From the IMG/VR virus record IMGVR_UViG_3300009285_000328, positions 1 to 26,237 of that record: 26,237 bases of DNA; one strand, 5' to 3'. Position numbers and translations under genes: made by a program. The notes under the pieces are model-generated. The model was not told where the DNA came from. It ran no database searches and saw only the letters and a list, made by a program, of their open reading frames with translations. This document shows, in pieces, positions 1-9,245 of the stretch (position 1 is the first letter of the stretch; each line of letters opens with the position of its first letter). This DNA is from a virus.

Positions 1-2818
1 TAGCTATGTCGGAATTTGCCACTCTCAGAGCGATGTCTTCGAGTTCGTTCGGTACTAACAGAATAGCCGGAACGTTTGCAGAGCCGAGAATGTCGTAAGA
101 ATCGCCGTAAGCAGTCAATGCTCTCATAGCAGCACGCATTTCAGCATAAGCGGCAGTCGATAATACGCTAGTCGTATAGTTTGCACGAGCAGAGGTCGCA
201 AGGGTTGTCGATCCGTCTTGTTCCAGATTGTTAAGGAACATACCGAATACGTCACGATGCAAGGTCAACGCAGCCGCACGGCCTAATTTCACCGGAATCT
301 TGCGGATGGCTTGCACATCATCGTTACCTACCATTTCCATCGTAAGATCATCGGTTCCACCTTTTTTCGCCGGCGTGAAAACTGCCTGCGTATCGGTCGG
401 ACTTGTCAACGGCTGATAGGTTGCACGTTCTGAAACGGTACTCAATACTCCATACCCGCCCATCTGTAAGCGTTTTTGTTCGAGGAAGTTTGTAAAGCTG
501 GAAATATCAGAACAGATATCCCGCCATGCCTGCAAGTCTGGGTTAGAGGCTTCCATCTGCATTTTTTTGTTAATGGCGTTTCCGAGAATTTCCGCCCAAT
601 CGCTGGTCTGCATACCGTAAGCTTCACGCATTCTTGATTCTCTGAAAGCTTTCCGGCGTTTGGCATCATAGGACTCAATCAAACGCGGCTGATCGCCAAC
701 CAACTCAGGCGTATAAAAATAAGAGTCGGAAAGGATAGTCCCGGCACTTGCAAAAGCAGCAGACGAATCATTCACGACATTGGCATAGGCTTCTTTGAAG
801 CTGATAAACCTGCGAACCTTTTTTCCGTCTTTGTCTTTTTCGTCTTGTCCTGAGAAAAATCCGTCCATTGCGATTCCGAGCTTGTCTTTCTCGTCACTGC
901 CCAATTGAACGCGAGCCTGGCCCGGCAATCCCTTGGATTCCTGCAACTTGGCCCAAACGTCTTGTTCGGCTTTAATGTCAGCCTGGAGTTCGTCTTCTTT
1001 GAAATCCTTATTGGTGTAACGGGTTTGCAGATTGGTTTTGATAGGATCAGGAAGATTCGATTCTGTTAATCGATTGGTTAGGATTACGCTTTTCTGCGAA
1101 ATGCGGATTGACTCTTGAAGTTTCTCTACTTCTTTTTTGATTGTTTCGTCTACAACTGGTTTTTCTACAATCTTTTCAACCGGCTTTTCGATAATCTTTT
1201 CAACTACTTCAGACTGCATGGCCTCTTTGAGCATGGCCAATGCATCGCTTTCGGTCAACTTGGTTTCGTCCTTGCCTTCCAAAAGCTTAGGTTTGTTTGC
1301 CTTGATTAAGGCAATGATTTCTTTTAAATCCATTTCGATTTCTCCATTGTTAACGGTTTGACTTGCTGCCAATCTGATTGCATGTCCCCCGGCAGCGGGG
1401 TAAGTTACCAGCGTGTTTTCCAATATTTCGGAAATCTCGCTTACATAGTCAACGGTCTCAGATCCCATTAATCTGGGCCACTCAGAACCGTTCCCGTCAA
1501 TGGAAAAACCTATCATGCGCCCTGCTTGCCACATTTCCATTAACTTAATCCGTAAATCTTTTTCGGATTCGTCAATGTAAACCGTGGCTAGTGCGCCTTC
1601 TTGCTTTTGTCCATTCTCGTCTATGAATTCGCCAAAGCGAACACTCTTTGCCCATCCAACAGTATTGCCGAATAAACCTCCCGGTTTGGATTCGGCTATG
1701 TCAATAGGCACGTGGTCGGCAAGGTCTGCTGAGAACTTGTATTGTGTTACAGGTGCTTTCTCGAATAGACCTTGCTCAACCGCTTTTTGTACGGCCTCAC
1801 GGCTATAATATCTCTTGTATCCGTGAGAACCGATATTCTTTGATTCGCCAACCTGCATTAATACTACATCCCACTCTTTGCCTTCTTTGTCTTTAGATTC
1901 TACTATTCTATGGGATTCTTTGAATAAAAATGCAGCTTCGCTTTCCTTTATAGTATTGTTTTGCTTTTTTTTTAATGTAAATATTGCAAATTCTGATTCT
2001 TGATTAATTTTTTCGCTTACATCTGGTATGTCTATTTTATCGATTTTTCTACCAGTCCTAAATGTTTTAATTGCAAATTTTAATGATTCTGATATGCTTC
2101 TAATTTTATTCTCATCCCAATAAGACATCCATTTGTTATTACCTACTTTTATTTTTGTATACAAAAATAATTTTGCTATTCCTCCTGGTTTTAATACGCG
2201 ATGTATTTCAGACAAAGAATCCTCTAATGGTGTCGAATGTATTGCGGCAACAGAATAAACGGCATCAAAATAATCATCCTTAAAATCAAGCTTTTCTGCA
2301 TCTCCAGCCTTGAAAGTTACATTTGAATTATTCTTATATATTTTTTTTGCTCTTGTTACGGCACTTTCTGCAACATCTATTCCAATAACTTTTATATTGT
2401 GTGATGCTATATAATTACTATCCACTCCGCTTCCGATGCCTATTTCCAATATCACCGGATTTTCAATATTTTCTGTTTTTATATATTTTATAAGATCGTC
2501 TGCAAGAGGAGAATGTTCTTTATTGTCTAACCAATGTGCTTCTCCTTCTTTTCTATAACTGTCTTGCCATTCCTCTGCTGTCATTTCCTTATTATATTCT
2601 TTTACAATATCTTCTTCTTCTTCTGTCAATGCTTCTTTCATAGCCTTTTTCATTACACCATTAGCAGAGGCAAAGGCTATTTTCTCTGCTTCGTCTTTAT
2701 CTTTTCCGTCCTTGATTGCTTTTTCGTATGCTGAATTCCAAACTGCTATCCATTGCTTTTTAATCTTTTCCGGCTTATCTTTCATACTGTCCGGCATGGT
2801 ATCCATTGTATAGGGCAT
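1..2818 (-). CDS. ChaB - SAM methyltransferase - prohead protease - scaffold - major capsid fusion protein (3' partial)
   Basis: One frame is open from an ATG at 2818 (upstream AGGAAAC) through 939 codons to the window edge with no stop. Residues 1-58 resemble ChaB (MPDSMKDK start, later IAFASANGVMKK). Residues about 83-287 are a complete class I methyltransferase: motif I EIGIGSG (125-131), acidic loop GIDVAES, GDAEKL, FDAVYS, then HRVLKPGG. Residues about 300-485 resemble XkdF/Mu-I-type prohead proteases, with a plausible catalytic His in DHVP (369) and Ser in GFSIDG (439). Residues 496-620 are a charged, EKP-rich scaffold-like segment. Residues from about 640 resemble a phage major capsid protein (DSYFYTPELVG, later LLVPNELEDIALRVANS). 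Protease-scaffold-capsid fusions are known in phages; the methyltransferase between ChaB and protease is the unusual part. It is visibly AT-richer than its flanks (roughly 1950-2560), suggesting later insertion. Its methyl acceptor cannot be told from sequence. Confidence 0.88.
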   Translation of the reverse strand, partial: MPYTMDTMPDSMKDKPEKIKKQWIAVWNSAYEKAIKDGKDKDEAEKIAFASANGVMKKAMKEALTEEEEDIVKEYNKEMTAEEWQDSYRKEGEAHWLDNKEHSPLADDLIKYIKTENIENPVILEIGIGSGVDSNYIASHNIKVIGIDVAESAVTRAKKIYKNNSNVTFKAGDAEKLDFKDDYFDAVYSVAAIHSTPLEDSLSEIHRVLKPGGIAKLFLYTKIKVGNNKWMSYWDENKIRSISESLKFAIKTFRTGRKIDKIDIPDVSEKINQESEFAIFTLKKKQNNTIKESEAAFLFKESHRIVESKDKEGKEWDVVLMQVGESKNIGSHGYKRYYSREAVQKAVEQGLFEKAPVTQYKFSADLADHVPIDIAESKPGGLFGNTVGWAKSVRFGEFIDENGQKQEGALATVYIDESEKDLRIKLMEMWQAGRMIGFSIDGNGSEWPRLMGSETVDYVSEISEILENTLVTYPAAGGHAIRLAASQTVNNGEIEMDLKEIIALIKANKPKLLEGKDETKLTESDALAMLKEAMQSEVVEKIIEKPVEKIVEKPVVDETIKKEVEKLQESIRISQKSVILTNRLTESNLPDPIKTNLQTRYTNKDFKEDELQADIKAEQDVWAKLQESKGLPGQARVQLGSDEKDKLGIAMDGFFSGQDEKDKDGKKVRRFISFKEAYANVVNDSSAAFASAGTILSDSYFYTPELVGDQPRLIESYDAKRRKAFRESRMREAYGMQTSDWAEILGNAINKKMQMEASNPDLQAWRDICSDISSFTNFLEQKRLQMGGYGVLSTVSERATYQPLTSPTDTQAVFTPAKKGGTDDLTMEMVGNDDVQAIRKIPVKLGRAAALTLHRDVFGMFLNNLEQDGSTTLATSARANYTTSVLSTAAYAEMRAAMRALTAYGDSYDILGSANVPAILLVPNELEDIALRVANSDIA
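1331..1345 (-). promoter_or_regulatory. Internal ribosome binding site and ATG for a scaffold-capsid product
   Basis: Inside the long fusion frame, GGAG (1342-1345) lies 8 bases upstream of an in-frame ATG (1331-1333) that begins MDLKEIIALIK. The position coincides with the end of the protease domain and the start of the scaffold-like segment. Nested in-frame scaffold starts are known in phages, for example lambda Nu3 inside gene C. Internal initiation here would supply scaffold-capsid in excess over the full-length protein. This is an inference from spacing and domain position. Confidence 0.5.
1964..1973 (-). other. A9G slippery tract at the methyltransferase-protease seam
   Basis: The coding strand reads TTA AAA AAA AAG in frame, a run of nine A followed by G (residues 282-285). 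It contains the heptamer A AAA AAG in the phase used for -1 ribosomal frameshifting (as in dnaX), and nine A also allows polymerase slippage. A -1 shift reaches TAG after about 18 codons and a +1 shift reaches TAA within a few, so either would release a ChaB-methyltransferase product of about 300 residues. No stimulatory downstream structure was established. Confidence 0.35.
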
Positions 2819-2830
2819 GTTTTGTTTCCT

Positions 2831-2859
2831 ATTTTATAGTCCTGCCCGGTCTATAAAAT
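2831..2859. repeat. Perfect 9-bp inverted repeat before the fusion gene's ribosome binding site
   Basis: Arms ATTTTATAG (2831-2839) and CTATAAAAT (2851-2859) flank an 11-base GC-rich loop. In the minus-strand transcript the hairpin ends directly before AGGAAAC and the ATG at 2818. It could be a translational control hairpin or a protein-binding palindrome; the sequence does not decide. Confidence 0.6.
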
Positions 2860-2860
2860 A

Positions 2861-2917
2861 AAAAAGGCAATGTTGACTAACAGGGCCAGAGGCATAAGAC
2901 CCTGTTAGTGCATTGCC
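2861..2917 (-). terminator. Rho-independent terminator-like hairpin
   Basis: Reading the minus strand, GGCAATG (2911-2917) and ACTAACAGGG (2900-2909) pair with CCCTGTTAGT (2876-2885) and CATTGCC (2866-2872) around a small internal loop and a 14-base terminal loop. A run of T follows (2861-2865 and beyond). This is a long stem with a U-tract in the transcribed direction. It lies between a promoter-like element and the fusion gene, so it would either end a short RNA or attenuate read-through into the capsid gene. Confidence 0.65.
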
Positions 2918-3022
2918 TCGAATAATGTCTTGGTGGGCAGATCAAGGGAGGGGGACTCAACCCACCCACCGATGGCTACGTAAGTAGCACTTTTTTAGAG
3001 CACTGATCCGCTAAGTCAATAT
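2861..3022 (-). ncRNA. Candidate structured small RNA or leader between promoter A and the capsid-fusion gene
   Basis: This coding-free stretch contains consecutive inverted repeats: GCTAC-TTAC-GTAGC (2975-2988), a GGTGGG/CCCACC hairpin (2932-2970, with two alternative right-hand partners), and the long terminator-like hairpin (2866-2917). It begins about where transcription from the -10 at 3030-3035 would start and ends at a T-run, giving an RNA of about 160 bases. On the plus strand the first hairpin has a GTAA (GNRA-type) loop and is followed by TTTTTT, so the opposite strand is not excluded. No known RNA family was recognised. Confidence 0.35.
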
Positions 3023-3029
3023 AATACTA

Positions 3030-3059
3030 AGTATAATATTTGAGATTTTCAATAGTCAA
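3030..3059 (-). promoter_or_regulatory. Promoter-like element A upstream of the leader and capsid-fusion gene
   Basis: On the minus strand TTGACT (3054-3059) is followed after 18 bases by TATACT (3030-3035), matching a sigma-70-type promoter. The -35 lies inside a 20-base sequence repeated at 18039-18058. It follows the end of a small membrane gene and precedes about 210 bases of non-coding leader. Confidence 0.5.
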
Positions 3060-3067
3060 TATTAAGC
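3048..3067 (-). repeat. Copy A of a 20-bp dispersed repeat overlapping a promoter
   Basis: The minus strand reads GCTTAATATTGACTATTGAA. The copy at 18039-18058 matches at 19 of 20 positions, differing only at one C/T. Both copies lie in intergenic gaps ahead of a gene block, oriented with transcription, which suggests a shared promoter or operator. Confidence 0.65.
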
Positions 3068-6081: not shown

Positions 6082-7872
6082 TTAAATAGATTTTCTTATT
6101 TTGATCATTACATTATCATTTGTGCCACCTAATATAATAAATTCAAATTCATCTAAACAACCATATCCAGATATACATGATCCTATTATTCTATTAGCTG
6201 GTATTTTGGCCATTGATACTAAATTGCCAAATTCATTGGCTATATTATAGTCAGCGCTCCATGATTCAGCCGCATTCCCTTTATATTTGTTTATTGCTAA
6301 ATTCACTACTTTATTAAATTTATTGTCTGAAATCTTAACTCCCCTAAATAATATTACTTCATCAATATTCATACTTTTTAGTTTTTCTTGCGTTAAATCA
6401 TACATAGCGCGTAAAAATTTACGTGTTTCAACATTATTCATAACTGGCGTATTTATATATAATGAATCTATAGCTTGCATAGCATTGTATTTAAGTGATA
6501 AGCCCCTTTTCTCGGCATAATTTACAAATGTATCTATCACATCTTCTGTTTGGCCTGATATATAATTAGCTGCCGCTTTTTTTATCATTGTTGATACTTG
6601 TTCTTTGCTTTCAATCTGCAATTCATTCATTATTGTTTTGATATTATTATCTACTTGTTTTTGCGCTTTTACAAATTGTACCTTTTGCCACCTTGACATT
6701 GGAATATTGAATTCTTCAGACATTGCTTGTTGCATTTTTAGTGCAAATAAATTATTATCATTGCTTGTTTCTGCCCATTTTTTAATTGTTCTGTTTATTT
6801 TTTCTTTCTCAATACCGGTCTTGTTCGCTAAATTATCAATTATATTTATTTTAGTTTCTTCTGCATTCTCTTTTTTGAAAGCATTTATTATTTTCTTCCC
6901 GCTTGCCTCGGCTTCAATGCGTGATAATTGTTTCAATCTATCATCAGCATAAATTCTATCTAATTTATCTTTTAATATTACCGGCTTCGCTTTCCCGTAA
7001 TATTTTTCCAGTTCTGCATCATTAAATAATGTCGTACCCAATCTACACCGGCATTGGACTGACTCGCTCGCCGGCAATGATGGATCATGCGGCATCCGTC
7101 CCTGGTACTTGCCAAGACTAAACATTTCATTTGATTTGATCGGCACGCCCTTGTGTGACGGATTTGTTTTCAAATCTGCGTGTTGATGGTGCGGCCTTCC
7201 GCGCTTATCAAAGGTTGCCATCCAGAATTTCCTCAACTCATCGTATTCCTCTGCCATGCGTTCCATCTGTGCATAGTGCCCGGCTGCAAGTACCCGTCCT
7301 GTTTCTGTCCGGGCTATTGCCATTGTGCGGTGTGTCAGCGTCTTGAATGTCAACTGAGGCTGAAGCTTGCGTTTAGCGTCATTGACTATAATAGTTCCGA
7401 GCGCCTTCATTACGTCAAGTTGCGGCTTTTTTGCCAGTATACCATACTGTATTTGCTTCATTATCTCGCCCGAGGACGTGCGGGATATGTCCTTGACTAG
7501 ATCGGCTGCAAGTTCTTTGGTGACCGTCAAAGCCTCAGTGCCGATATTAAACAGGTTTGTAGGTATGTTTGCTACCATGAACGGCTTGTTAATCAAGTCC
7601 AAGCCATCATTCCATGCCTTTGTCAGTCCCTTGTCCATGCTGTTTCTCATAGCCGATTCGAGTTGCTGCGTTGCCCGTTCTATCTCAGTTCGCAAAAGCG
7701 GAATGTAATAAGCCTGCCAATCGGTTTGTGCTATCATGTCCAGCACTTGCAGCCGATAGTCTTTGAGTATCTTTACAAGGTCTAATGCAGTATTGTTTGG
7801 GATCCGCCCGGCCTTTTTCATGGCTGCATTAAAGGCTTTTTGAAAGATTAGTTTTTTCTCGAAATCGGTCAT
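6082..7872 (-). CDS. MuF-type minor head protein fused to an ADP-ribosyltransferase domain (596 aa)
   Basis: Residues about 180-280 form the SPP1 gp7/Mu F (MuF) head-morphogenesis domain: RTMAIARTETGRV, FWMATFDKRGRPHHQHAD and the terminal VQCRCRL. Residues about 435-596 look like a bacterial-toxin-type mono-ADP-ribosyltransferase of the R-S-E class: Arg510 in ILFRGV, the S-x-S element ESWSAD (537-539) and the E-x-E pair at 575/577 in DEFEFIIL. MuF proteins enter the capsid near the portal, so the domain could be injected with DNA and modify a host target. This delivery role is inference from similar fusions. The C-terminal half is visibly AT-richer than the MuF half. The ATG overlaps the preceding zinc-ribbon gene. 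Target unknown. Confidence 0.88.
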   Translation of the reverse strand: MTDFEKKLIFQKAFNAAMKKAGRIPNNTALDLVKILKDYRLQVLDMIAQTDWQAYYIPLLRTEIERATQQLESAMRNSMDKGLTKAWNDGLDLINKPFMVANIPTNLFNIGTEALTVTKELAADLVKDISRTSSGEIMKQIQYGILAKKPQLDVMKALGTIIVNDAKRKLQPQLTFKTLTHRTMAIARTETGRVLAAGHYAQMERMAEEYDELRKFWMATFDKRGRPHHQHADLKTNPSHKGVPIKSNEMFSLGKYQGRMPHDPSLPASESVQCRCRLGTTLFNDAELEKYYGKAKPVILKDKLDRIYADDRLKQLSRIEAEASGKKIINAFKKENAEETKINIIDNLANKTGIEKEKINRTIKKWAETSNDNNLFALKMQQAMSEEFNIPMSRWQKVQFVKAQKQVDNNIKTIMNELQIESKEQVSTMIKKAAANYISGQTEDVIDTFVNYAEKRGLSLKYNAMQAIDSLYINTPVMNNVETRKFLRAMYDLTQEKLKSMNIDEVILFRGVKISDNKFNKVVNLAINKYKGNAAESWSADYNIANEFGNLVSMAKIPANRIIGSCISGYGCLDEFEFIILGGTNDNVMIKIRKSI

Positions 7873-8500: not shown

Positions 8501-8644
8501 TTAAGCCAAATGCATTATTATTATAGCGACTAATGATACTACTACAAAGATACATAAAGCCACAAAACACAAGGCCATACATATCGCAATAATGCAGAAT
8601 ATGAATTTAAGCGCTAACTTTAATACGTTTATTATTTTTGTCAA
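8501..8644 (-). CDS. Possible hydrophobic peptide (47 aa), TTG start
   Basis: In a frame overlapping the end of the radical SAM gene, a TTG at 8644 (or 8647, with GGA upstream) opens MTKIINVLKLALKFIFCIIA, continuing almost entirely hydrophobic to IIIMHLA. It would be a membrane peptide like its neighbours. The weak start and the overlap make it uncertain. Confidence 0.35.
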   Translation of the reverse strand: MTKIINVLKLALKFIFCIIAICMALCFVALCIFVVVSLVAIIIMHLA

Positions 8645-9245
8645 CAATGTATTCCATCATCTCCCGATAGTGCGTAAATATCATACCATCTGGAGCTATC
8701 TGGAATCTTACGTTTCTAGGATGCTCCAAGTATTCTTCCGGCCCTTCACATTTCTTGACTGTACTCTTAACCGGCAATATGGCCGTGTCAAGTTCTTTGG
8801 CTACGACATGGCTGAATCTATAATCATAGGTATAGAAGTTAATAAGGAATAATTCCATGTCCTGTTGATGGTGATAGTTCGCGAGTATCCTCAACCTATC
8901 TGAAGGCTTTGCCTTGAATATATTGTTAACCGAGATGCCGTTTGTCTGTACTGTAACACATATCTTGTTGCTGGTTAAATAGTCTATAATCTGCCATACA
9001 TCCTTATACAAGTCAGGTTCGCCGCCTGATATAAAGGCTTCCTGCGTTTTATGCAATCCGGTGAACCGATCAAGCAAGTCAATCCATTGCTTTGCTGTCA
9101 GTTCTTTGTCAAGGTATGGCCGGTTATTTGCTATGCCATTTGGCTCACAATATCGACATTTCAACTTTTGGTTGCATCTCATTGTCGGATAAATTACTAT
9201 TCTATCCCCTCCTTTTAGTCTGCGTATTAAGCCATAGGGAATCAC
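8607..9245 (-). CDS. Radical SAM domain protein (212 aa)
   Basis: The N-terminus carries CNQKLKCRYC (Cys 24, 30, 33; CX5CX2C rather than the usual CX3CX2C), expected to bind a 4Fe-4S cluster, followed by AFISGGEPDLYKD (74-77 GGEP), the motif that contacts the SAM amino group. Length suits a minimal radical SAM core without auxiliary cluster domains. It probably cleaves SAM to a 5'-deoxyadenosyl radical; the substrate cannot be inferred. It is not clearly QueE or NrdG. The start is a GTG sharing a base with the upstream TAG. It sits between portal and MuF genes, an unusual place for such an enzyme. Confidence 0.82.
   Translation of the reverse strand: MIPYGLIRRLKGGDRIVIYPTMRCNQKLKCRYCEPNGIANNRPYLDKELTAKQWIDLLDRFTGLHKTQEAFISGGEPDLYKDVWQIIDYLTSNKICVTVQTNGISVNNIFKAKPSDRLRILANYHHQQDMELFLINFYTYDYRFSHVVAKELDTAILPVKSTVKKCEGPEEYLEHPRNVRFQIAPDGMIFTHYREMMEYIVDKNNKRIKVSA

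Follow-up and report, generated by a model that had tools for sequence, protein, structure and literature searches.

Why would a phage build an enzyme into the precursor of its own capsid? This question is raised by a gene at one end of the window, i.e., the full 26,237-base linear IMG/VR record of metagenomic origin analysed here, a fragment that lacks the end of the capsid protein. The gene and the features discussed below are the following:

2..2818, minus strand: polyprotein gene (ChaB-like domain, methyltransferase (MTase), prohead protease, scaffold, major capsid protein (MCP)), a single open frame
2840..3010, minus strand: structured 5' leader
2639..2818, minus strand: ChaB-like N-terminal domain (residues 1-60), from a sub-threshold Pfam match and alignment with the ChaB domain of a relative
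1949..2638, minus strand: class I SAM-dependent MTase (residues 61-290), from Pfam, AlphaFold2, VIA-align and the motifs EIGIGSG, GIDVAES, GDAEKL and HRVLKPGG
1965..1973, minus strand: A9 homopolymer at the C-terminus of the MTase; loss of one A would bring a TAA into frame just before AAGGA
1334..1918, minus strand: predicted prohead protease domain (residues 301-495), with His369 and Ser439, from invariant residues and a T4 gp21 fold
1331..1345, minus strand: predicted internal translation start, GGAGA followed by ATG (codon 496), an SD-like sequence and ATG at the protease/scaffold junction
749..1333, minus strand: putative scaffold/delta region (about residues 496-690, its end lying at 690-730), placed by alignment and by its position between the protease and capsid domains
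2..748, minus strand: 5' part of the major capsid protein gene, running off the contig
6082..7872, minus strand: gene for a MuF domain with a C-terminal ADP-ribosyltransferase-like domain

The sequence-only reading had described a single uninterrupted frame from ChaB to capsid, and this is confirmed: 939 minus-strand codons (2..2818) follow one another without a stop up to the contig end, downstream of genes on the same strand for the small and large terminase, portal and MuF proteins. Chance cannot explain a frame of this length with four recognisable domains, and the fusion is real and unusual. The outer start at 2818 has AGGA 8 bases upstream. No in-frame ATG, GTG or TTG is present between codon 231, inside the MTase, and codon 321, inside the protease; MTase and protease are therefore fused and not two adjacent genes, and protease and capsid would lack an ordinary start of their own unless one lies inside a domain. 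The domain limits first proposed mostly match those of the profiles (ChaB, residues 8-51; Methyltransf_11, 124-214; Phage_capsid_4, 733-933, E 8.7e-24; phrog_29592, 292-939, E 2.5e-78): they hold for ChaB, MTase and protease, whereas the capsid part begins nearer residue 690-730 than 640, with the scaffold/delta region extending from about 496 to 690-730. The leader of the gene (window 2800-3060, minus strand) is predicted to form several strong hairpins (MFE -86.2 kcal/mol, z -5.95, 0 of 200 shuffles as stable), for which Rfam gave no match.

The enzyme domain is, by its sequence and its predicted structure, an intact class I SAM MTase (Methyltransf_11/25). The Pfam match has an E of 5.2e-21 (75.5 bits, against a cut-off of 21.2), and motif I EIGIGSG (GxGxG), the acidic loop GIDVAES and HRVLKPGG are present, in agreement with the claim that a complete MTase lies inside the ChaB-protease-scaffold-capsid frame. 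A SAM-binding fold, whose absence from structure prediction would have spoken against that claim, was looked for with AlphaFold2 and is well predicted (pLDDT 90.1, pTM 0.85, from a 32-row alignment). The model has the Rossmann-like MTase fold, with a VIA-align Z of 22.1 to 5gm1 (rmsd 3.5 over 186 residues), and its neighbours at Z 19-22 are small-molecule and peptide MTases, matches that do not tell the substrate. Motif IV of DNA amino-MTases (Dam/N6A/N4C), (D/N/S)PP(Y/F/W), was searched for in residues 61-290, which contain no PP, the region reading DAVYSVAAIHST; because this motif is absent, canonical DNA amino-methylation by the window MTase is unlikely, and restriction protection through such methylation was ruled out. 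A reading as a defence gene was also rejected, the PADLOC model mad2 (E 5e-20) performing no better than generic MTase models.

The MTase region stands apart in composition: residues 61-300 have a GC3 of 0.19, versus 0.42-0.48 on both sides (Fisher P 2e-14 against residues 301-939). The best breakpoints are placed at residues 23-60 and at 309-312, where conservation in the protease core begins. At the N-terminus, Pfam ChaB matches residues 8-51 below its curated cut-off of 27 (E 1.4e-4, 22.9 bits). This ChaB-like domain aligns with that of L011, the closest ChaB-bearing relative found, which scores above the cut-off (41.1 bits); with either of the two, tblastn against phage records gave no match. 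In L011, ChaB is followed by a different domain of about 110 residues and then by protease and capsid. Since this relative has the same order with another domain in the middle, the MTase looks like an insert in an existing polyprotein, and the simplest reading is that an AT-rich MTase module took the gap between ChaB and protease. Other N-terminal domains take the place of the MTase in L002, L009, L011 and L027, while the gene next upstream of protease-capsid in L004 and L006 codes for a Dam-type protein; that of L006 (1347-5837, directly upstream; 1,496 aa) combines a Dam MTase with an ATP-dependent DNA ligase and other regions.

Homologues with the same architecture had been proposed as a check on the fusion. 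They were searched for in viral and genome contigs, and the exact fusion was found in one contig only: viral contigs scanned with the whole polyprotein and with ChaB-MTase as single-protein queries yielded no relative, and scans of genome contigs none either. For the MTase alone, a scan of viral contigs gave as closest relative a domain in L030, with about 43% identity (42-43%) over its whole length (E 5e-54; next match, E 8e-13). A scan for the MTase subfamily returned only the L030 contig again and one distant MTase, and the 11 contigs of relatives, themselves fragments, hold none of this subfamily. The L030 protein is 2,344 aa long, with the MTase at about residues 440-670; it also has LPD38 (E 2.6e-36) and an HEIGHH motif, and its contig encodes a virion structural protein as well as a major head protein. 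Because the closest MTase homologue belongs to an LPD38 polyvalent protein, the idea of a polyvalent protein or effector gains support, although the window protein itself is without an LPD domain.

A more distant architecture is seen in L071 (2-3673, with which L118 goes), where a partial class I MTase match, a DNA ligase, a uracil-DNA glycosylase (UDG) and an XkdF-type prohead protease are found in one chain, just upstream of a scaffold-position gene of unknown function and of genes for a major head protein and a tail sheath. Enzyme-prohead protease fusions therefore occur in a different head module. A 349-aa member of a protease family of Lactococcus phage 28201 (phrog_1530) that bears the label 'DNA methyltransferase' was considered and discarded as a precedent, as it looks misannotated: gp33 (L119, 2878-3927) is a head maturation protease in RefSeq and a DNA methyltransferase in the original GenBank record, and the MTase label of PHROG 1530 is probably a misannotation.

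The region that follows the MTase has no Pfam match, but its model (pLDDT 76) resembles T4 gp21 (5jbl), with a Foldseek probability of 1.00 and a Z of 11.7 (rmsd 3.4 over 142 residues), the next unrelated row standing at Z 4.0. The putative catalytic residues His369 and Ser439 are invariant in all 10 aligned sequences. The region is predicted to be a T4 gp21-type prohead protease fold, and the protease with His and Ser in the expected places, as originally read from the letters, is borne out. Fusions of prohead protease and MCP are already known (NF045541, NF045540; phrog_29592, Microcystis phage Mae-JY22) and, like the window gene, join protease, scaffold and capsid in one chain, to which the window adds the ChaB-MTase extension. 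The window protein, incomplete at the contig end and divergent, falls far below both NCBIfam cut-offs (88.6/525 bits for NF045541, a match confined to the capsid part, and 83.1/475 for NF045540).

Is the enzyme then carried by every capsid subunit? At the protease/scaffold junction, an ATG with an SD-like sequence of the GGAG/GAGG type is found in 11 of 11 family genes, and in 10 of these it ranks 1-4 among 19-63 in-frame starts (combined rank P 1.4e-6, not a strict probability since the genes are related). Shuffling of synonymous codons gives a weak control (P 0.018 for all genes, 0.45 for a diverse subset), and the SD signal may thus follow partly, or even largely, from the encoded amino acids. 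An internal start at codon 496 is likely on these grounds, and we infer that most capsid subunits start there, the MTase form being a minority. The predicted start would resemble that of lambda C/Nu3, where an internal start in the protease gene makes the scaffold alone; in the window, the predicted product would be scaffold plus capsid. Because the conserved start likely yields scaffold-capsid alone, the enzyme would be present on only some capsid subunits. The notion of an MTase in the capsid precursor stands as far as the fused frame is concerned, but the enzyme is probably borne by a subset of capsid subunits. By our own estimate from HK97 dimensions, a T=7 prohead would be largely or entirely filled if every one of its 415 subunits bore about 700 N-terminal residues, a consistency argument only.

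How such a precursor might work can be proposed step by step. The full-length ChaB-MTase-protease-scaffold-MCP protein would be a minority species initiated at 2818, and most capsid subunits would be scaffold-MCP initiated at codon 496. Both forms would co-assemble via their scaffold and capsid parts, thereby placing the N-terminal MTase inside the prohead, where the protease would cut itself, the scaffold and the MTase free. Once released, all or part of the ChaB-MTase would stay in the head, enter the next host with the DNA and methylate a protein or a small molecule early in infection. Every step, from internal initiation and co-assembly to the cleavage sites, retention and injection, is inferred here, as are activity and target, and we hold only tentatively, at slightly less than an even chance, that the product of the gene is a capsid precursor whose enzyme domain travels as cargo, being packaged, freed by the protease, injected and used for early methylation in the next host. 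In well-studied phages, the head does not keep the cleaved pieces of scaffold and protease, and retention of the freed enzyme is for this reason not assured. The broader proposal that the N-terminus of protease-capsid polyproteins is a cassette slot for effector enzymes, with scaffold-capsid made via the conserved internal start and a minority enzyme form via the outer one, the latter taken up in the lattice, released by the protease and injected, is possible but on balance doubtful.

The enzyme could instead do its work before the virion is complete. An MTase that modifies the capsid, some other virion protein or a host target while the producing cell still assembles its phages, or earlier, and that is then cut off and lost from the head, would suit the late-gene position, the tethering of the enzyme to a possible substrate, the capsid, and the usual departure of cleaved precursor parts from the prohead in HK97 and T4; the fusion would then serve only co-expression or placement. 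We consider this unlikely, though to be taken seriously: the closest homologue lies in a polyvalent protein, a class thought to be injected, and the enzymes of L071 are borne by the protease and not by the capsid protein, so that tethering to the capsid is not what the cases share. Alternatively, the domain may no longer be used as an enzyme and may serve as a folded spacer or an aid to assembly, in line with the unrelated domains that fill the N-terminal slot in relatives; given the intact SAM-binding motifs, the high-confidence fold and the concentration of the L030 identity (42-43%) in the motifs, this seems improbable.

Two further explanations bear on the fusion itself. The A9 run lies near codon 282, close to the C-terminus of the MTase; slippage there could release a free ChaB-MTase, since an A8 transcript would stop at a TAA shortly after, and the fusion would be a by-product. 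About 0.4 such A runs are expected by chance in the AT-rich stretch (own estimate), so that the run was dismissed as a signal for lack of significance, and the broken frame would leave an intact protease without an in-frame ATG, GTG or TTG; we give this explanation little credence. Finally, an assembly chimera of a foreign MTase gene and a capsid gene would account for the sharp GC3 change at the MTase limits and for the occurrence of the fusion in a single contig, but is very improbable: the ChaB and protease-capsid flanks belong to one ancestral gene, as in L011, two in-frame breakpoints would be needed, the frame is intact across both junctions, and the MuF protein encoded on this contig shows a like step in composition.

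That MuF gene (Phage_Mu_F at residues 169-278, E 4e-8) has a GC3 of about 0.55 that drops to 0.22 at residue 281, the point at which its ADP-ribosyltransferase-like tail begins. The tail matches DRAT below cut-off (E 1.7e-4) and contains the motifs FRGVK, SWSAD and EFEF. Two head proteins of the window phage thus appear, from their composition and profile matches, to carry acquired AT-rich enzyme-like domains; MuF-effector fusions were already known (PMC5512222). Between the portal and MuF genes, a radical SAM protein is encoded (window 8607-9245, minus strand), with weak QueE-like and viperin-like matches.

An effector domain brought into the prohead by the capsid precursor is the best-supported reading, by likeness to T4 Alt, an enzyme that is packaged, cut by gp21 and injected (PMC7411985). 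Alt and the internal proteins of T4 differ from the window protein in being encoded by separate genes, with short targeting peptides, and not as parts of the capsid precursor. Phage polyvalent proteins (Iyer et al. 2017, PMC5512222) and MuF/portal-effector fusions are alike in having an enzyme domain fused to a virion protein, the carrier in the window being the protease-scaffold-capsid precursor. Polyvalent proteins combine several unrelated activities per chain, as do the MTase and protease here; an LPD-type or other signature domain was looked for in the window protein as well and is absent, LPD38 being found only in its homologue L030. Release of units by a protease of the same chain was proposed for the MPTase domain of polyvalent proteins (PMC5512222), and the window protease could act likewise; ChaB goes unmentioned in the main text of that study, and 'prohead' appears only in a reference title. 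L071 resembles the window in that a class I MTase precedes the prohead protease in the chain, with scaffold-like and capsid genes alongside, but has a Peptidase_S78_2 protease, a separate capsid protein and several enzymes, and its MTase match is partial and distant.

Enzymes on portal and MuF proteins are known, and what is new here is the protease-capsid precursor as carrier, with possible dosing by an internal start; no report of an enzyme fused into the capsid precursor itself was found in the open-access literature. If the internal start is used, the enzyme form would be a minority species co-assembling with scaffold-capsid, and the conserved start is a testable prediction for the family of protease-capsid fusions. 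If the enzyme is packaged and injected, the fusion would offer the phage a simple route for loading an enzyme in a dosed copy number, and would suggest a natural design for enzyme-filled capsids.
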